Source: Fodinicurvata sp. EGI_FJ10296
Lineage (GTDB): Bacteria > Pseudomonadota > Alphaproteobacteria > DSM-16000 > Inquilinaceae
Assembly (NCBI RefSeq): GCF_040712075.1
Contig: NZ_JBFCVL010000008.1
Span: 62,001-126,000, forward strand
DNA length: 64,000 nucleotides
Direction: 5' to 3'
The stretch's first letter is position 1. Every line of letters begins with the position of its first letter. This document shows positions 42,920 to 56,718 of this stretch, in pieces. The notes under the pieces are model-generated. The model ran no database searches. It had not been told where the DNA came from and saw only the letters and a program-made list of their open reading frames with translations. The position numbers were made by a program, and so were the translations under genes.

Positions 42920-43453
42920 GTATCCGGCCTGTTTGTGCGGTCGGAATGACCGCTGGCCAATAAGGCGGCCGCGACATGGGTCCCATTCAAGTCATCGCTC
43001 TGGCTGAGCGTTGATCCGGTCGGGTTTGGCCCGCGTCGTGGCGCGATGCACGTGACCGCCATGCTGTCATCGTCCCTCGCAATCTCAGCGGCCGCGCCGG
43101 CTTCAGGCGCGGGCCGGGCGCGGCGGTAGGTCTCTCCCCGGCTCATGACAACCCAGGCTATGCGGGCAGCCTTGTTGGCCAGAGCGGTCGCCGCAACGGG
43201 GGTTGGCCGGCGCTGCTGCAAGGCGGCAAGCCAGGGGTCGGTGCCGCCTTGGCTTGTCTTGTGATGGCGCAGCGAGGTGGCGCCCGGTCTTGAAGTTGCG
43301 GGCATCACCAATGGTCGCAGGTAGGGCCGCGAAAAATCGAATCACAGCATCGCGCCGCAACCGTTTGATCAGCAAAGCCTCTCCAGTATCGTCGACGCCC
43401 TGAACCTGAAATACGCGCTTGGCAATATCCAGCCCGATCAGCTTGACTTCCAT
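42920..43453 (-). pseudogene. IS110-family transposase remnant, internally deleted
   Basis: The N-terminus is intact (MEVKLIGLDIAKRVFQVQGVD, with the first catalytic Asp) for about 46 residues. It then jumps directly to the C-terminal segment TIGDARNFKTGR, which in full IS110 transposases lies some 180-200 residues later. At about 43280 a second jump and a frame change lead to GATSLRHHK ... PWLAALQQRRPTPVAATALANKAARIAWVVMSRGETYR, the conserved end. Most of the RuvC-like core and the serine-containing segment's context are lost, so the product is inactive. The frame runs on to about 42920 without meaning. The deletion points have no obvious repeats. Confidence 0.88.
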
Positions 43454-43544
43454 CGTGGACGGCTCCTCTCGTATGCGGTTGGACCACAACCACATTGGCA
43501 CATTGCGATGCCGTAGAGGTGGGGCCGTCCACACCTTCAAGTCA

Positions 43545-43822: not shown

Positions 43823-45001
43823 CTACCGTCGATCCAGATCCGATTTCAGCGCCAGAAAGTTCATGAGATCGCGAAGCGACAGAATGCCGACCAGTTCGAT
43901 CTGGCTGCCATTGTGTCTCTTTGCCACAAGCAGGCGCGACTTTCCGGTACGCTGCATCTGCATCAGGGCAGCGGCTGCGTCCTCGTTCGGGGCGATGAGC
44001 GCATCCTCGGTCACCGGCACCATGACCGCACTGACGGACTTCCCGACAGCATCGTCCCGGTCACCCAGTTGCTCTGTTCCCAGCACGCCGACAAGGCTGC
44101 CGCCGTCCATTACCGGAAATGTCTTGTAGAAATACCGGTAGAAATAGTCGTCGATCGCTTGCGGGACCGGCAGGTCGGCCGGCACTGCCACGATGTTGCG
44201 CCGCATGAACCTGCTTACCGGCTGGCCCGACAGGATCGATTGCGTCATCTGGTGGCGAACCTGCCCCTGAGCGGCAGCATGAACGAACAGTCCCAGAATG
44301 AAGTACCAGACACCGCCGATGACATTGCCGCCGATAAAGGATGCCAGCCCCAGGCCCATCAGAATCGCGGCAAACACGCTGCCGGCGGAGGCTGCGATCC
44401 GCGTCGCCCAGATCAGGTCGCCTTTCCAGGCCCAGAGTGCCGAGCGCAGCACGCGGCCGCCGTCGAGCGGAAAGGCCGGAACCATGTTGAAGACGGCCAG
44501 CAGAAGATTGATGAATGCGACATAGCCAAGAACCAGACCGATCGGCGAAACGCCTGGTTGCCCGGTGAGCGTTTCGGAGGACCCTGCACCCGATAGGCCG
44601 CCCCCTGAGAAGCCGGCCGCCGCCCAGAACAGGAACGCCACCACGAGCGACATGATCGGGCCCGCGATCGCCATGAGGAATTCTCCCTTGGCCGTCGGCG
44701 GTTCGCGCTCCATTTCCGCAACACCACCGAAAATGAACAGGGTGATACTCCTGATCGGCATGTCATAGCGCCTGGCAACGACGGCATGAGCGAGTTCATG
44801 GGCGACGATCGACGCCGCCAGGCCGAACAGACCGATGACGCCCATGGACCAGTATGTGCCGGCACTCTGGCCGGGAAGCAGGACTGGAAAGAGTCCCGTG
44901 GACAGGCTCCAGACGATAAGAACCGCCAGCAACAGCCAGCTTGCGTCCACCATGATTCTGAAGCCGAACAGTGTGAACAGGGTCAATCGGTTCGCGAACA
45001 T
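43823..45001 (-). CDS. Site-2 protease (M50) with CBS domains
   Basis: A 392-residue membrane metalloprotease. Zinc ligands are H68-E-L-A-H72 in SIVAHELAHAVVA, and the third ligand is in NMVPAFPLDGGRVLRS. Six hydrophobic segments make the catalytic core. From about residue 250 two CBS motifs follow (VSRFMRRNIVAVPADLPVPQAI and SAVMVPVTEDALIAPNEDAAAALM), which usually bind adenosyl ligands. Such proteins cut membrane-bound regulators inside the bilayer. The ATG at 44999-45001 is chosen from the conserved beginning MFANRLTLFTLFG. Its start is 194 bp from the divergent BacA-like gene, so they share a promoter region. Confidence 0.93.
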   Translation of the reverse strand: MFANRLTLFTLFGFRIMVDASWLLLAVLIVWSLSTGLFPVLLPGQSAGTYWSMGVIGLFGLAASIVAHELAHAVVARRYDMPIRSITLFIFGGVAEMEREPPTAKGEFLMAIAGPIMSLVVAFLFWAAAGFSGGGLSGAGSSETLTGQPGVSPIGLVLGYVAFINLLLAVFNMVPAFPLDGGRVLRSALWAWKGDLIWATRIAASAGSVFAAILMGLGLASFIGGNVIGGVWYFILGLFVHAAAQGQVRHQMTQSILSGQPVSRFMRRNIVAVPADLPVPQAIDDYFYRYFYKTFPVMDGGSLVGVLGTEQLGDRDDAVGKSVSAVMVPVTEDALIAPNEDAAAALMQMQRTGKSRLLVAKRHNGSQIELVGILSLRDLMNFLALKSDLDRR

Positions 45002-45103
45002 TTCTTGCGCCTTATGACGTGGATCTACACCACGTCGGTATGCTGTCCGGCCGATCAAGGGGGGACTGTGCCAATGCCCTCACCACCCTGCCCGTCCGGA
45101 CAA

Positions 45104-45194: not shown

Positions 45195-45758
45195 ATGTCG
45201 CTTGGCGGGACATCATTGAACCTGCACACGCTGGGACCGGAGGGAACGAATTGCGCCGAGGCTGCGCGATTCTGGCTGTCGCGGTCGTCACCAGCCGCGA
45301 GATCTGCCGAGGACCGGATCGTCCTGCACCCCACGCTGGAGCTGGCTTCATTGGAACTGGCCGACCCCGAGCGCGATCGACTGCTTAGCTGTGCGGCCTA
45401 TCCGGAATTGCATACTTTCATCTTCTCCAGACTCGATCGGCTCGTGATGACGGATGCTTTCGTCATGCCGACCCATGCCATGGTGCTTGCCCGCCAGCAA
45501 ACCGTGGCGCCCGATAGCGGTCGGGCTCCGGTAATTGCCACTCATCCCGCCCCCCGGCATCTGGCAGAATCCTGCGCCGCAGAAGGAGCTGAATTCATCG
45601 TTGCGACCAGCAATGCCGATGCGGCCGTCCGATGCGCAAAGGGTGAGGCGGATATTTGCGTGACGACTACCGCCGCCGCGCGGATATATGATCTTGCCGT
45701 GCTTCAGGACTTCGGCCCCGTGCCTATGGCGTTCCTCATCCATGCCATGCTGCCATGA
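45195..45758 (+). CDS. BacA-like prephenate decarboxylase homologue
   Basis: A 187-residue protein related to the prephenate-dehydratase catalytic domain but as short as BacA (~204 aa) and without an ACT domain. Seen: LHTLGPEGTNCAEAA (BacA: TLGPEGTSSEYAA), HTFIFSRLDRLVM, PVIATHPAPRHL (BacA has VIVSHPSPINL), a TSNADAAVRCAKGEADICVTT segment followed by ARIYDLAVLQDFGPVPMAF (BacA: KTFKSIPMSW). BacA-type enzymes decarboxylate prephenate to dihydro-4-hydroxyphenylpyruvate, the entry to anticapsin, without aromatising. The comparison is from memory, not an alignment run. The last 4 bases overlap the next frame. A true prephenate dehydratase is less likely because of length and missing TRF motif. Confidence 0.75.
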   Translation: MSLGGTSLNLHTLGPEGTNCAEAARFWLSRSSPAARSAEDRIVLHPTLELASLELADPERDRLLSCAAYPELHTFIFSRLDRLVMTDAFVMPTHAMVLARQQTVAPDSGRAPVIATHPAPRHLAESCAAEGAEFIVATSNADAAVRCAKGEADICVTTTAAARIYDLAVLQDFGPVPMAFLIHAMLP

Positions 45759-45778
45759 CCACGTCGGGAGGCAGTTCC

Positions 45779-47011
45779 ATGCCGGTCGATCGGAACGACG
45801 CTCCACCATCGATCCTGTTGCGCATCATCGACATGGTCGACAGTGTGCGGCCCTATCAGGGTGTGGACGGGACGATCGCAAACCACCCGCCACAGGCCTA
45901 TCGGCTGATCCAGGCACTGGTCGACATACTGGAACATGACTACGAGGAAGTCCCGGGACTCACGCGGCCGCTGGCGCTTGCGACATCGGGCGATTTGCGG
46001 CGGTGGCTTGAATCGGGACTGAATACGCCGCCGGCCTTCGATGCCACGATCGCGGCCTTCCCCCCACCGGAGAACGGTTCGCCGATCTTTCTGTTGGCCT
46101 GCATGATCGCAACCAACGGACCGCAACCGACAGGGCGCTTCCTTGAGGCCGTGTTCGGCTATCGGCGGGAATCGCAAATATTGGCCGAGGCCGAAAGCTA
46201 TTGCGGCGGCTACGAAAAGGCCTTCGACTGCATCCAGCTGACCGAGGCGTCGGCCGGATTTCGACAGGGCAACTGCATCGTTCTGTTTCCGGAATCCGTC
46301 GCCCGCGCCAAACGGGTCGAGCGCCAGACCTTTGCGCTTTTCTTCTTCAACAAGTTCAGACGAATCTATCACGAACTCACCATGCCGGAAGTACGCCGCC
46401 TGTTCGGCCCCGAAGACCAGTGCTTTCCAGGCTCCGGACGTTGGCTGAGCGCCGACATGACCGAATCGGCAATGTACGACGCCCGCTGTCTCTGGGGCTA
46501 CTTGCACGACTATGCGCACCACACCGGGCCTCGCCCGCTCGATCAGTCCCTTTCCCTGAAGATCGGCTGGCATACCGGTTTGTTGGAGGAACTGAAATGC
46601 GATCTGATCGGCGCCCTGGTCATGGCGCGCAAGCAACCCCGCTATTGGCGCGAGATCATCGAGTTCATCATCTGGGAGCGGATGCTGCGCTATCCCCGGG
46701 CCTGGCGCGATCGCAATACCTTCGACGCCGGCACCGGCGTGCTGCTGTTCGGTGAACTCTGGCGGTCCGGCGCCATCCGGCCCGGCCGAGAGTCGTATCT
46801 CGCCGTGAATCTGGCCGGCGTTCTGGAGACGGCAGACGCACTCGTTCGCGAGATCGAGGATCTGGAGCGGCTCGACGATACCGCCTATCCCGACGCCGCC
46901 CGTGCTTTCGTCGAGGCGCGCCTTGGCGCCCCATCGCCGCCGGACCGATACGACCGCGCAGGAACGATACACGCGGATGTTGTTTTCAGCGCGGATATCA
47001 TGCAATCATAA
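45779..47011 (+). CDS. DUF6421-like protein, putative metal enzyme
   Basis: About 410 residues, no signal peptide. Fragments fit DUF6421: DSVRPYQGVDG near the start, GNCIVLFPESVA, a YDARCLWGYLHDYAHHTGPRPL segment, LLEELKCDLIGALV and a final DAGTGVLLFGEL. H243-D244-x-x-H247-H248 and E270-E271-x-x-x-D275 could form a metal site (inference; family function unknown to me). The ATG at 45779 has GGGAGG seven bases before it; an ATG at 45755 would overlap the upstream stop as ATGA. Either way the gene is coupled to the BacA-like gene. Position in the cluster suggests it transforms the BacA product or the dipeptide. Confidence 0.65.
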   Translation: MPVDRNDAPPSILLRIIDMVDSVRPYQGVDGTIANHPPQAYRLIQALVDILEHDYEEVPGLTRPLALATSGDLRRWLESGLNTPPAFDATIAAFPPPENGSPIFLLACMIATNGPQPTGRFLEAVFGYRRESQILAEAESYCGGYEKAFDCIQLTEASAGFRQGNCIVLFPESVARAKRVERQTFALFFFNKFRRIYHELTMPEVRRLFGPEDQCFPGSGRWLSADMTESAMYDARCLWGYLHDYAHHTGPRPLDQSLSLKIGWHTGLLEELKCDLIGALVMARKQPRYWREIIEFIIWERMLRYPRAWRDRNTFDAGTGVLLFGELWRSGAIRPGRESYLAVNLAGVLETADALVREIEDLERLDDTAYPDAARAFVEARLGAPSPPDRYDRAGTIHADVVFSADIMQS

Positions 47012-47035: not shown

Positions 47036-48007
47036 ATGACAATGCGTCTATCGATCTACACTTTTCTGATTCTGGGGCTATTCTCGGCCAGTTGGATCGT
47101 GTCCAAGGATATCGTCTCGGACCTGCCCGCCGCGCACGCAACGGGGCTGAGGCTCACGGCGACCGCAGTGGCGCTATGGATCATCGTTGCCATTCACAAG
47201 CCGGGACGATTCCCGCTCGCCGATCTTCCCCGGGCGCTGATCGGGTTCGTCATTCTGGCCGTCCTCGGTTTCGCCGGGTATTTCCTCCTGTCGTTCGGGG
47301 CATTGATCCCGCTTCAGGCCAGCCAGTTGAGCATGGTCCTGTCGTCGATTCCGGCCATCACCTATCTGATCGCCCTGGCGCTCGACCTGGATAAACCCAA
47401 TGCCCTGAAATTCGTGGGTGTACCCCTGGTCACGATCGGCGCCGTCTGGTTCAATCTGGCCGACGCGCGTGGTCTGTCGGTCGAGCAGGTGACCGGGCTC
47501 GCGATGGCTGCGACCGCGGCACTGTCCTATGCGCTTTATGGCCTGGCCTCGAAAAAGCTTCTCGCCGGGCGTCCGCTTCTGGGCAGTCTTGCCTGGATCA
47601 CGACCTTTGCCGCCCTGATGTTCGTGCCCGTCTATATCGCCGATCCACTGCCGCTGCAGACCCTGGTGCCCGCTGATATCATCAAGCTCGCACTTCTGGG
47701 CGCGATCCTTTCCGCCCCGATCTATGTCCTGTATCAGATCGTGCTGGCGGCCGGCGGCGTCGTTTACGCCAACTCGATCGGGGTCATGGCCCCCTTTGTG
47801 ATCCTTGCGGCCGAACTTGGTGTCGGGTTCCGCAACGACGTGACACTGCCGGAAATCGTGGCGATGATGATCGGTGCCGTCGGTGTCGCCCTGCTGTTCA
47901 TTGACGCCATGCGCGGCGAACTGCGGCAGGCTCCGCCGCCGGACACGGCCGCCCTGGCCCGCAGCGAGTTGCGCCGCGCACGCGCGTCGCGATCGGCGAC
48001 GCGATGA
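47036..48007 (+). CDS. DMT-superfamily transporter (EamA type)
   Basis: A 323-residue inner-membrane protein with ten helices in two EamA repeats (first: LGLFSASWIVSKDIVSDLP, second: GLAMAATAALSYALYGLASKKL). Such carriers often export amino acids or small metabolites. It starts 24 bp after the DUF6421-like gene and overlaps the ATP-grasp gene by 4 bases (ATGA, 48004-48007). In bacilysin operons a different exporter (BacE, MFS) plays the analogous role, giving self-protection. The C-terminal tail is Arg/Ala rich. Confidence 0.88.
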   Translation: MTMRLSIYTFLILGLFSASWIVSKDIVSDLPAAHATGLRLTATAVALWIIVAIHKPGRFPLADLPRALIGFVILAVLGFAGYFLLSFGALIPLQASQLSMVLSSIPAITYLIALALDLDKPNALKFVGVPLVTIGAVWFNLADARGLSVEQVTGLAMAATAALSYALYGLASKKLLAGRPLLGSLAWITTFAALMFVPVYIADPLPLQTLVPADIIKLALLGAILSAPIYVLYQIVLAAGGVVYANSIGVMAPFVILAAELGVGFRNDVTLPEIVAMMIGAVGVALLFIDAMRGELRQAPPPDTAALARSELRRARASRSATR

Positions 48008-49272
48008 CGAGTGCAACGAAGATGTCGGGGGGACCGGTACTGCTGGTCTGTCAGCGCAGCGCGAAACTGCCCTTCGTTTTCGAGGCGGCGTCGCGCGCGG
48101 GGATCGACCTGATCGCCCTTCACGACAGCGGCGAACCGGCGCCCCTTGGCGTGCCGGCCGTCGTCGACACCCTGGCCTTGCCGGTGTTCACCGACCCGGA
48201 ACGCGCCCTGGACGAATTGGCCGAACAGGCCGGACGGCTGGGACTTGCCGGCGTGTTTACGGTTCGCGAAGAAGCCGTCGTGTGGACAGCCAATGCTGCC
48301 GCCCGTCTTTGCCTGCCGGCGCTGTCGCCCAAGGCGGCCGCGCTGACCCGGGACAAGGGCGCGATGCGCCGGGCTTTTCAGGCCGCCGGCCTTCCGGTTC
48401 CCGGTTTCGTCAGCCTGAACGGCCCGGAGAACATTGACGCCGCGCGGCATCTAAGCCCGCCCCTGGTCGTCAAACCGTCCGGCGGATGGTCATCGACCGG
48501 CGTCATCCGCGTCGACAGCCAGGATGCGCTGCCTGGCGCCATGTCGGCGGTCGCCGCAATCCAGAAGCGCGATCTCAATCGATACTATGGCGGCATGGCG
48601 CCCCGGATCATCGTCGAGGAATATCTCGACGGCGCCGAGTTCGTGGTCGAGTGCTTTGTGCGCGCGGGCAACGTCCATGTTCTGGCTGTCGGGGACAAGG
48701 GATGTCCGACGGGCCCCTGGTTCGAGGAAACCGTCTACGCCGTTCGCAACGACCTGGACGATCCGGCCATTGCCGCCCTGATCGAAGCCGCAGCGAACGG
48801 CATCCGGGCCATAGGCCTCACCACCGGACCGGCCCATGTCGAATTACGCCAGGACCGGCATGGCCGGCCCCATCTGTTGGAGATCGGCGCGCGAATCGGC
48901 GGTTCCGGCGTTTCCGATTTCATTGTGGAAGAAGCGACAGGCCTGTCGTTCACCGGCCTTTGTCTGGACGCCGCTCGCGGTCGGCAGATGCCGGAATTAC
49001 CGCCGGTTTCGTGGCCGACCCGCATACCGGGCAACTATATCATTCCGCTGGCGGGGCATGGCCGGTTCGACGGCATAGACGGACTGGAGACTGCCCTTGC
49101 ACATCCGGATACACGCCGGGTTGTGCCTTTGCTGCCCGAGGGGACCCAGGTTCCGGCCCCGCCCGCCTTTGCCGGATATCCGGGCTTCATATTTTCGGTG
49201 CACGATACACCCGATGACGCCCGCGCTTATCACCAATGGCTCGACCAAATGGTACGCCCGCGCTGGCGCTGA
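48004..49272 (+). CDS. ATP-grasp ligase, BacD/L-amino-acid-ligase-like
   Basis: A 422-residue enzyme with an ATP-grasp core. The nucleotide-binding loop reads PLVVKPSGGWSSTGVIRV, the grasp segment VEEYLDGAEFVVECFV, and the Mg-binding end HVELRQDRHGRPHLLEIGARIGGSG (E/N ligands). The N-terminal pre-ATP-grasp domain (VLLVCQRSAKLPFVFEAA) resembles BacD and carbamoyl-phosphate-type ligases. BacD joins L-Ala to anticapsin. Other members of this group ligate D- or N-acyl compounds, so specificity is an inference from the adjacent BacA-like gene. The ATG overlaps the exporter stop. Last gene of the operon; 38 bp later the kinase gene ends on the opposite strand. Confidence 0.82.
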   Translation: MTSATKMSGGPVLLVCQRSAKLPFVFEAASRAGIDLIALHDSGEPAPLGVPAVVDTLALPVFTDPERALDELAEQAGRLGLAGVFTVREEAVVWTANAAARLCLPALSPKAAALTRDKGAMRRAFQAAGLPVPGFVSLNGPENIDAARHLSPPLVVKPSGGWSSTGVIRVDSQDALPGAMSAVAAIQKRDLNRYYGGMAPRIIVEEYLDGAEFVVECFVRAGNVHVLAVGDKGCPTGPWFEETVYAVRNDLDDPAIAALIEAAANGIRAIGLTTGPAHVELRQDRHGRPHLLEIGARIGGSGVSDFIVEEATGLSFTGLCLDAARGRQMPELPPVSWPTRIPGNYIIPLAGHGRFDGIDGLETALAHPDTRRVVPLLPEGTQVPAPPAFAGYPGFIFSVHDTPDDARAYHQWLDQMVRPRWR

Positions 49273-52722: not shown

Positions 52723-55700
52723 ATGACCCATCCCGCGGCGGCGCGACGCCGGACCATCCTTGTAACGGCGACAATGCTCCTTCTGCCGGGCGTCGTGTTG
52801 GCGCAAGACCGGTTCTGCGATCCGGTCCCCATCCCGGAGATCGCCGGATGCTCGCCCGCCGCCATGCTCGACGCGCTCAACGGCGACCAGATCATCACCG
52901 GGCCCCGTTCGCCGCAGGTGGTATTCGCCGAAGGGCAGACGCGGCCCGGCCAGGGCTATCTCGACATTTCCGGACTGGTGGGCGAGTTTGGCTCCGTCTG
53001 CGCTCAACCGGTCTCCGCCCTGACGACGGACGGCCTGATCATGTCGGGCGCACTGCGCGACATCTCACCTCGGGATCTGCTGGGCGACGGCGACGTGACC
53101 GGCGGCATCGGAACGGTCATGGAATTCATGAGCCGAATGTCGGCGGGCGAAGCGCCGTCGGGCAACATGGACGCCGATATGCTCAATGTCCTGATCCCGC
53201 CGGATTCCGATATGCGCGATGTCGTGTTCGAACTCTCCAGCCCGAATGCCTTCACGCTGGAAAGCGGGGTCCTGGGCAATCCGATATGGATCGAACACAG
53301 CGGCGCCACCGGGTGGAGTCCCCGCTCGGCCAGTCACTTCGTGGTCCAGCTTCCGGACACCACGCCTGCCGATCTGCAGCCCGGCGAAGTTTACCGCGCC
53401 ATCGCCACCGCCCCACGCGACGGTGATGGCGCATCCGGAGCGATGCCGACGCTGGCGGCGTTCTACACGACCTGGGACGGCAGGTTCCGACGTTTCAGCC
53501 AGCCGGACCAGGCCGCCCCGCCGATGGCCGTGCCGTTTCTCAGGGACATTCAGCGCAATCTGGAACTTCCTGACGGAATCGGCGGTCTGGACATCGCGCA
53601 GATGGCAATCTCCGGCGAGGGCCAGGCCTTCGCCGGCGAAATCACCATGGTCGGCGGCCGGCTGAACGGCACCGTAACGATCGATGAGATCACCGATACC
53701 ACGGTTTACGGACGGCTAGAGCTTTCCGGCGACGCCTGGGCCGAGACCGATACGCGGGAATTCACCTATGACGACGAGGGCCAACTCGATGGCAGCCGGC
53801 GGGTCGATATCTCGCAACAGGATGCATCGCTGACGGTCTACGGCGGGTTTGCGGCCCCCAATCAGGGCAGCATGACCCATATCGGCCACAGTGCCGTCGC
53901 GATCGACGGACGCGGCGGCGACCGCCCGCCGGTTCTCGGCGTCGAAGCGAATTTTCCCGCCTCCGGGGCGAAGAACCTCGACTTCGACGACCCGCGCCTT
54001 GAGGTCGTTTTCGACCGCGCCATCGACCCGGCGAGTATCGGCCCGGGGACGGCCTATCTCGAATACCGCAGCGCCAGCGGCGGCATGGCGCGGGTCGATG
54101 TCACCGCCGACGTTGACGACGATACGCTGCACTTCCATCCGGTTGATGCGCTGCCGCCCGGCGCCTGGTACCGCCTGATCGTCGAAGGCGGCCAGACGGG
54201 GCCGGCAGGCCGTGACGGCGCGGTATTGCCGGGCCCTTTCGGGCTGACATTCGCGACGGTCCCGGACGAGTTCGAGATCACGCCCGTCGTTATTCAGGTC
54301 GCGCGCGACGCGCCGCTGGTCGCCGGCAAGACCACCCTGACGCGGCTTTATATTGACTGGGAACGCCCGGAAGGCACCGTCCACGAATCCTGGCACGTCC
54401 GCGACATTCCGGCCAATGCATGGGTCACGGACGAACGTGAGGGGCAGCTTTACGAGACGAAAGAGGACGTGCCCGTGCCGAACGAGGATCTGGCCACCCC
54501 CGATCAGCAGCGGGTCGCGAACAACACCGTGAACTTCTTCGGCTGGGACCCGATGCTGCGCGAAACGCGCGAAGTGCTGGGCTTCATCGAGCCTCTCGAT
54601 CCGTGCGACCAACCGCTGGGCGAAGAAGACGGCAAGACCGGTGTGACCTGGACGGATCTGCAGCGCGACCTCACCTTCGATTATTACATGATGCGGGTTG
54701 GCCCCTGGGCGGACGGCATTTCGCCCGCCGCACGGGGTGCGCTGCGATCGGTCGCGCACAACGCCGCTCGTTTTACCCAGCAGACCTTTCCGGTGACCGG
54801 CGTCTCCGGGCGCTTTGCCGGCGACTATACCCCGACACGCGACTGGCAGGAACGGTATGGCGACAACCTTCCCGACAGCTATTCCGGCGACGCCGAACTC
54901 ATGTTGATGAGTGAGCTTCACGATGCGGTCGCCCAGTTCAGCAACGCTGACATGATCGTGGCGTTCCTGCCCACCGAAGTCAGCCAGGGCGGGTCCTCTT
55001 ACGGGCCGGTACCCTTGGCGGACGGGGGCAACGAGTTCCGCTGGTCCCAGCCGGTCCGATTCCGAACACCCACTGTTGCCATGCAAGGCGTGGCGCGCGG
55101 CGCCATGGTGCCCGCCATCACTCATGAATTCGGTCATGGCTTCGGATTACGGCACGTCCCGGACGTCGCGAATGTGGGCGAACGACAGGCAGAGTGCGAC
55201 TCGGGCCGGACCGAAATGGCGGGCATCGAAGGATTTCGCCTGTCGTTGGACGGCAGTGGCGGCAACAACAAGTCGTTCGAGGAAGGCAACGGTGAAACGA
55301 CCTGGGGGCTGTTGCCGTTGATGTATCCATGCGCCGAGGAATATTCGAAGCACTTCATCCTGCGTGACTATTATTTGCAGCTGATTGATGGCATTCGCAC
55401 ACATGCGGCCGCAGAAACCCCGGAGAATACCGGTCCAAGCTATGCGCAGTCTCTGCAATCGATACTGGTCGGCGGCCCGGCTCAAGCTGCGGACGGGTGG
55501 TCCGACGGGGGTCCACAGCAATTCGTCGTCGTCGGAACCCTCGGCGAAACGACGGCGACCGCCAGCATAGACCGGATGGCGCCAGCCCTGCGGCGCTTCC
55601 GCGATACCGGGCCCGAGGGCGACTTCACGCTGATCGCGCGCGACCGAAGCGGCAGCATCCTCGCCCAACGCCCGCTCGGCGCCGACATGACGGGTGAGAA

Positions 55701-56718
55701 CGGAAGTCCGTTCTTCTCGGTCATCTCAACGTCGCGGCCGCCTTTCAGCCTCGAAATCCGTCACGGCGAAAAGACGGTCGCCCAACGGCGCCGATCGCTG
55801 TCGCCGCCCCAAATCCACGGCTTTCGGCTGGCGGACAGCGGCGGCGATATTGCGCGGCTGCGCTGGGAGGCTGAGGACAGCGACGACGATCCGTTGCGCT
55901 ATACCGTGCTGTTCCGCAGCGCAGAGGATGACGGCTGGCGCGTGGTGGCCGTTGCTGGGGACGGCGCCACTGCCGCCGTTCACCGCGCCGCCCTGCCGGC
56001 CGGACCCGACCCGACGTTTCGGCTGATCGCCAGTGACGGAATGGATCAGGCGACCGCCGACATTTCCGCCGCAGCCGCCGCGCGGCCTCCGGAATTGTTA
56101 CCAGAGGCCGACACTGCTGAAGACGGGTCGGACGCCGCCGGCGAAGCCGATTTTGTGCCCGACCCCGGCCCGCCACGCCTCGGCGGCGGCTTGGCCGAGA
56201 CGGATCCCACGAGCGAGGCGGACGCCGCAGACGACACGCGAGAAACCGGGAACGTTGATGCGCCGGAGCCGCGCTCCGGCAGTGCAGCCGGCGGTTCCAA
56301 TCTTGGCACGATCGCTTTCGGTGGCGAGAGCCACGAATTCGCCCTGCGCGCATGCACCCGGACGACAGTCGGTCCCGACACCCGGCTCATCGACATCTCC
56401 GGCGCGACGGCACCTGAGGGCCAGACGCGGCTGGTCGTCAGCGCTACCATCGCCGACTTGCCCGGCGGCGGCAATCAGGTGGTCGAGGCCCGCCGGGTCG
56501 ATGCCGGCGGCGATGAAATCGCGGTCTACGTCGCGATGCGCACGAACCAGGGCGGCGAATGGGTGACCGGCCTGGGCGATCCCGCCAATGGCCCGCTTCT
56601 GACCGTCGATGGCACGACGATCAGCGGGTCGGGCGAGTTCCTCGACCGCACCGGCATGCCGGAATCCTTGGGAACCGGCCGGTTCGAAGCGCATTGCCAG
56701 TCCTTTTCGGATGGATGA
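52723..56718 (+). CDS. Large secreted metzincin-like zinc metalloprotease
   Basis: A 1331-residue exported protein. The signal peptide is about residues 1-27 (MTHPAAARRRTILVT, ending VLAQ). Residues ~390-520 resemble a bacterial Ig-like Big_5 domain (LDFDDPRLEVVFDRAIDP). The zinc site is H801-E-F-G-H805-x5-H811 in HEFGHGFGLRH, the extended HExxHxxGxxH of metzincins, with the Met-turn at M867 (PLMYP). A Fn3-like segment follows at about 1030-1110, then an acidic linker (1120-1200) and a C-terminal beta-rich domain. Bilobal family assignment is not possible; it may be undescribed. No barrel or LPXTG anchor; release by Sec and another pathway is unknown. Confidence 0.82.
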   Translation: MTHPAAARRRTILVTATMLLLPGVVLAQDRFCDPVPIPEIAGCSPAAMLDALNGDQIITGPRSPQVVFAEGQTRPGQGYLDISGLVGEFGSVCAQPVSALTTDGLIMSGALRDISPRDLLGDGDVTGGIGTVMEFMSRMSAGEAPSGNMDADMLNVLIPPDSDMRDVVFELSSPNAFTLESGVLGNPIWIEHSGATGWSPRSASHFVVQLPDTTPADLQPGEVYRAIATAPRDGDGASGAMPTLAAFYTTWDGRFRRFSQPDQAAPPMAVPFLRDIQRNLELPDGIGGLDIAQMAISGEGQAFAGEITMVGGRLNGTVTIDEITDTTVYGRLELSGDAWAETDTREFTYDDEGQLDGSRRVDISQQDASLTVYGGFAAPNQGSMTHIGHSAVAIDGRGGDRPPVLGVEANFPASGAKNLDFDDPRLEVVFDRAIDPASIGPGTAYLEYRSASGGMARVDVTADVDDDTLHFHPVDALPPGAWYRLIVEGGQTGPAGRDGAVLPGPFGLTFATVPDEFEITPVVIQVARDAPLVAGKTTLTRLYIDWERPEGTVHESWHVRDIPANAWVTDEREGQLYETKEDVPVPNEDLATPDQQRVANNTVNFFGWDPMLRETREVLGFIEPLDPCDQPLGEEDGKTGVTWTDLQRDLTFDYYMMRVGPWADGISPAARGALRSVAHNAARFTQQTFPVTGVSGRFAGDYTPTRDWQERYGDNLPDSYSGDAELMLMSELHDAVAQFSNADMIVAFLPTEVSQGGSSYGPVPLADGGNEFRWSQPVRFRTPTVAMQGVARGAMVPAITHEFGHGFGLRHVPDVANVGERQAECDSGRTEMAGIEGFRLSLDGSGGNNKSFEEGNGETTWGLLPLMYPCAEEYSKHFILRDYYLQLIDGIRTHAAAETPENTGPSYAQSLQSILVGGPAQAADGWSDGGPQQFVVVGTLGETTATASIDRMAPALRRFRDTGPEGDFTLIARDRSGSILAQRPLGADMTGENGSPFFSVISTSRPPFSLEIRHGEKTVAQRRRSLSPPQIHGFRLADSGGDIARLRWEAEDSDDDPLRYTVLFRSAEDDGWRVVAVAGDGATAAVHRAALPAGPDPTFRLIASDGMDQATADISAAAAARPPELLPEADTAEDGSDAAGEADFVPDPGPPRLGGGLAETDPTSEADAADDTRETGNVDAPEPRSGSAAGGSNLGTIAFGGESHEFALRACTRTTVGPDTRLIDISGATAPEGQTRLVVSATIADLPGGGNQVVEARRVDAGGDEIAVYVAMRTNQGGEWVTGLGDPANGPLLTVDGTTISGSGEFLDRTGMPESLGTGRFEAHCQSFSDG

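Follow-up and report, generated by a model that had tools for sequence, protein, structure and literature searches.

What does the DUF6421-like protein of this locus do, and why is its gene placed between two genes that an earlier note called BacA-like and BacD-like? The window, that is, the whole stretch of DNA analysed here, covers 64,000 nucleotides of Fodinicurvata sp. EGI_FJ10296. The note had described the protein as bearing an unrecognised metal or acid-base centre of seven residues in a family without assigned function. The open reading frame (ORF) lies where the note had put it. Its first in-frame ATG at 45755 gives a protein of 418 aa, and the ATG at 45779 gives 410 aa. A GGGAGG Shine-Dalgarno sequence precedes ATG 45779 with a spacer of 7 nt and is better than the one at 45755. 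Thus, the start at 45779 preferred by the note is plausible. Residues are numbered here in the 418-aa ORF, and 8 is to be added to numbers of the 410-aa frame used previously. In addition, the DUF6421-like assignment was borne out by the Pfam family PF19985 (DUF6421), which matched the ORF with 64.8 bits (E 7.8e-18) against a gathering cut-off of 25 bits. The ORF, its motif codons and its neighbours are as follows.

45195..45758, plus strand: prephenate dehydratase (PDT)-like protein of 187 aa, TdaC/BacA type, putative prephenate decarboxylase that does not aromatise (sub-threshold PF00800, PDT fold, no TRF motif)
45755..47011, plus strand: DUF6421/PolE-like, Fe(II)- and probably pterin-dependent oxidase (PF19985, phmmer match to PolE, fold)
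46505..46519, plus strand: HDYAH codons, H251-H255, with H251 and H255 as the first two predicted iron ligands (45/45, at the position of PolE HExxH)
46586..46591, plus strand: EE codons, E278-E279, where E279 is predicted to be the third ligand and corresponds to Glu230 of PolE (45/45, rule HE/DXXHX(21-23)E)
47036..48007, plus strand: EamA/DMT-type transporter, probable product exporter (PF00892, E 4e-17; EamA/DMT also in the Pantoea and Staphylococcus clusters)
48004..49272, plus strand: ATP-grasp L-amino-acid ligase of the BL00235 type, LAL_C2 (Pfam; 3vot)

The four genes lie on one strand with overlaps or gaps of at most 24 bases, and judging from this arrangement they read as one operon. 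Upstream, a divergent gene (43823-45058, minus strand) codes for an M50 site-2-type protease that carries two CBS domains. An ORF with MEVKLIGLDIAKRVFQVQG (43103-43540, minus strand), which lies between the operon and the ATP synthase genes, is apparently a fragment of an IS110-type transposase. Downstream, a large, secreted-looking ORF of 1331 aa (52723-56718, plus strand) carries HEFGHGFGLRH, a metzincin-like zinc motif.

A described member of the DUF6421 family is PolE, which desaturates L-Ile and requires Fe(II), O2 and BH4 (PMC12614342, Nat Chem, October 2025). The metal motif HE/DXXHX(21-23)E is common to the family, soluble motif mutants of PolE had no detectable activity, and DUF6421 is remotely similar to dipeptidyl-peptidase III (DPP III) without having its HExxGH (PMC12614342). 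The ORF follows the same rule, with HDYAH, 23 residues and then E279, invariant in 45/45 sequences. Therefore, the iron triad is likely to be H251/H255/E279 (H243/H247/E271 in the earlier numbering). In the family alignment of 45 relatives, as the note had proposed to check, H251, D252, H255, E278, E279 and D283 (formerly H243, D244, H247, E270, E271 and D275) were identical in 45/45, and H256 (formerly H248) in 41/45. This conservation is far beyond chance. The idea of a conserved metal centre at these residues was thus upheld, with six of the seven invariant, and the seven-residue centre is corrected to two His and one Glu. However, because PolE had already been described in October 2025 as an Fe/pterin oxidase with the same motif (PMC12614342), neither the centre can be called unrecognised nor the family be said to lack an assigned function.

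The fold leads to the same relative. An AlphaFold2 model of the ORF, made from the 45-row alignment, had pLDDT 88.7 and pTM 0.88. In this model, H251 and H255 are on helix 237-255 and E278 and E279 on helix 272-293, two successive long helices, and this layout is the HExxH...E arrangement known from PolE and DPP III. A fold that places the residues apart, which would have counted against the note, was not seen at the helix level of the model. Furthermore, the first six chains found by Foldseek were all PolE (E 6e-15 and weaker), and VIA-align superposed 360 residues of the model on PolE structure 9j3g with Z 30.9, which establishes the same fold. To PolE and to DPP III alike, the alignment extends along the entire model. 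The top five solved matches were all Fe/pterin-dependent PolE (Z 30-31, about 360 residues). Sequence searches agreed: phmmer against solved structures found PolE 9j3g with E 5.8e-13 and 9j2e with E 6.4e-11, and the profile of the 45 sequences reached PolE at E 3.7e-28. The ORF protein is a distant cousin of the Fe/pterin amino-acid oxidase PolE. On balance, we favour its being a PolE-type mononuclear non-haem iron oxidase that works in an operon for a prephenate-derived dipeptide.

The partner gene bears on the substrate. The PF00800 score of the PDT-like neighbour is 20.4, under the cut-off of 25.2, and prephenate dehydratases were the best matches of its AlphaFold model. The catalytic-Thr motif TRF of dehydratases is missing in it, and PMAF stands there instead. 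Its sequence identity is 41% with TdaC of Phaeobacter, 42% with a Proteus protein whose gene adjoins that of a DAHP synthase, and 28% with the annotated BacA of Streptomyces goshikiensis. BacA lacks TRF as well. The missing motif, as the one basis for this reading, suggests a prephenate decarboxylase that does not aromatise. Judged by these identities, the neighbour labelled "BacA-like" is nearer TdaC than this BacA. A PDT fold would also suit an ordinary dehydratase, with the oxidase acting on phenylalanine or tyrosine as classic Fe/pterin enzymes do on aromatic amino acids (PMC12614342), and with a phenylpyruvate- or phenylalanine-derived product. However, the paired PDT-like proteins have no TRF, and the host already has its own PheA, which retains NTTRF; such an aromatic route therefore seems unlikely.

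At the other end of the operon, both ATP-grasp_4 and LAL_C2 scored over the cut-off in the ligase, which establishes its class as an L-amino-acid ligase. Among solved structures it matched BL00235 (3vot) with E 9e-88 and BacD with E 8e-12. Thus, "BacD-like" was right as to an amino-acid ligase, but the type is that of BL00235.

An earlier genome scan with a single sequence found nothing, and an alignment-based scan using DUF6421 motifs alone was used instead; it gave 47 loci of this DUF6421 subtype from about 24 genera and several phyla. A PDT-like gene lay within 4 kb of DUF6421 on the same strand, usually adjacent, in 47/47 loci, which are not independent because many are from Streptomyces. 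The gap is about 1.1 kb in Micromonospora and some Streptomyces, and in Paenibacillus the two genes are about 4 kb apart with genes between. The TRF motif is absent from the paired PDT-like proteins. In addition, a predicted aminotransferase is near DUF6421 in 35/47 loci and an LAL-type ligase in 20/47. Plasmids of Pantoea and Staphylococcus xylosus carry the full set together with an EamA/DMT exporter. In S. arlettae, Priestia, Marinobacter and P. endophytica, a transporter of the EamA/DMT family is found with genes for the ligase, the PDT-like protein and DUF6421. The Pseudoalteromonas locus has an extra aminotransferase and a DAHP synthase/chorismate mutase, which points to prephenate supply.

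The trees of the two proteins were correlated with rho 0.57 (maximum of 500 shuffles, 0.17), a value inflated by shared host ancestry. Among 398 genomes drawn evenly from the phylum, two had DUF6421 and both had the PDT-like gene; a third strong PDT-like match was a tropodithietic acid (TDA) cluster. TdaC-like genes thus occur without DUF6421 too, for example in TDA clusters. No PDT-like gene was found within about 8 kb of the distant DUF6421 genes of Nonomuraea, Tsukamurella and Burkholderia, and no relative of the PDT-like protein was found in phage records. In Proteus mirabilis H63 (L015 7274-10463), the neighbours of a TdaC/BacA-like gene are a class II DAHP synthase and an RraA-like gene, with no DUF6421; this is possibly another prephenate-derived pathway. 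In Paracidovorax anthurii (L025 7296-9191), the PDT-like and DUF6421 regions are in one reading frame of 631 aa. We did not take this as firm evidence of a fusion: in its relative L024 the two genes are separate, and the end of the PDT region differs, so a frameshift is possible.

Taken with the operon, we infer the substrate, the order of amination and oxidation, the outcome of the reaction and pterin use in this clade as follows. The TdaC/BacA-like protein would decarboxylate prephenate without aromatisation, and an aminotransferase encoded elsewhere in the host would turn the product into a dihydrotyrosine-like amino acid. In the DUF6421 oxidase, Fe(II) would be held by H251, H255 and E279; a reduced pterin would serve to activate O2, and the resulting ferryl species would abstract H from, or add O to, this small amino acid, so that it is desaturated, hydroxylated or epoxidised. 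The ATP-grasp ligase would then couple the oxidised amino acid to a second one, and the EamA protein would export the dipeptide. The probable role of the operon is thus the synthesis and export of a small dipeptide derived from prephenate. The note had offered oxidising, aminating or rearranging the first enzyme's product as the role of the protein; oxidation is probably right in outline and more likely than either of the others. The host has a gene for pterin-4a-carbinolamine dehydratase, unlinked to the operon, and no classic aromatic amino-acid hydroxylase was found in its genome, which is a faint hint of pterin use by the ORF protein.

The electron source of the clade could instead be an alpha-keto acid, either 2-oxoglutarate or the keto-acid product of the PDT-like enzyme, as in 4-hydroxyphenylpyruvate dioxygenase (HPPD). 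The PDT-like partner should yield an alpha-keto acid, and the motif resembles that of HExxH Fe/2-oxoglutarate oxygenases (PMC12614342). Furthermore, R137 and R244 are invariant in the PDT-paired clade and absent from unpaired members, among them the PolE-like protein of Burkholderia; R244 lies two helical turns before H251. These arginines might bind a keto acid and permit keto-acid-driven chemistry, and being found only in this clade, they are a reason to keep such a variant in view. However, PolE needed BH4, and its model has no 2-oxoglutarate pocket (PMC12614342). In addition, F140, Y157 and Y280, which were mutated in deposited PolE structures, align with F178, F196 and F323 of the ORF, all invariant in the PDT-paired clade, and HPPD-like chemistry would destroy the alpha-carbon required by the nearby aminotransferases and ligases. 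We therefore consider a keto-acid-driven enzyme improbable. A zinc-dependent hydrolase or peptidase like DPP III is hardly credible, since DPP III, although the next best fold match after PolE (Z up to 18.6), falls far below the PolE match (Z 30.9) and needs HExxGH and a catalytic His, which are missing in DUF6421 (PMC12614342), while the ORF carries HDxxH.

For the PolE-type oxidase with its prephenate-derived substrate, we put forward tentatively, as a possibility rather than an expectation, that the cassette of four genes represents the minimal pathway to an undescribed class of dipeptide antimetabolites present in several phyla. In this pathway, DUF6421 would oxidise a non-aromatic dihydrotyrosine, for example by epoxidation. 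If true, the oxidation of dihydrotyrosine would be a substrate and a reaction new for any iron/pterin enzyme. To our knowledge, iron/pterin enzymes were long known solely as aromatic amino-acid hydroxylases, and PolE contributed one new reaction. A large subgroup of DUF6421, encoded together with a prephenate-decarboxylase-like enzyme, suggests a second chemistry for the family, and small antibiotics could be found by expressing the four genes. It also offers a candidate enzyme for oxidising prephenate products that are not aromatic; in bacilysin-type pathways, such oxidation is poorly accounted for. The metal centre and a function of the family were already known; it is the strict link of DUF6421 to a TdaC/BacA-like gene in a compact, widespread cassette that appears unreported. 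No description of the gene pair was found in the open-access literature, which leaves out most subscription journals.

The idea that GlmS confers self-resistance and would point to an anticapsin-like product was considered and rejected, for the positions of glmS are otherwise explained. The genome of Vibrio sp. Of7-15 has a single full-length glmS, which is preceded by a regulator-sized gene and closely followed by the PDT-like/DUF6421 cluster (L044 4652-9257). The region just downstream of glmS is the usual attachment region of Tn7. The cluster thus sits at a common insertion place. In the genome of the window, the first GlmS adjoins GlmU, and the second full-length GlmS (L085, contig 7), 76% identical to the first, is in an exopolysaccharide cluster.

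Compared with known systems, the operon resembles the bacilysin operon of Bacillus (BacA-BacG) in uniting a prephenate-decarboxylase-like enzyme, an L-amino-acid ligase and an exporter. However, it has DUF6421, its ligase is nearer BL00235, its PDT-like protein is only 28% identical to BacA, and genes of the bacB, bacC, bacF and bacG types were not found among its four genes. BL00235 (3vot), the closest solved relative of the ligase, formed Met-Gly and Met-Met in vitro (PMC6920838). Among annotated proteins outside DUF6421 loci, TdaC of the Phaeobacter TDA clusters is close to the PDT-like protein, and both end in VPMxF; the TDA clusters, in the stretches read, have neither DUF6421 nor a ligase, whereas the window operon has both. 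DPP III shares a remote fold with the ORF, but it is a zinc peptidase with HExxGH, and in the HDYAHH of the ORF Asp replaces Glu and there is no inserted residue. PolE of the polyoxin pathway (9j3g, 9j2e, 9j2r) shares the DUF6421 family, the whole fold, the metal triad and the aromatic active-site positions. Nevertheless, identity to PolE is only about 20%, and the substrate and co-substrate of the ORF can therefore differ. The ORF clade has Phe for Y280 and adds R137 and R244; PolE acts on L-Ile beside PolF, whereas the ORF clade is tied to the PDT-like gene.
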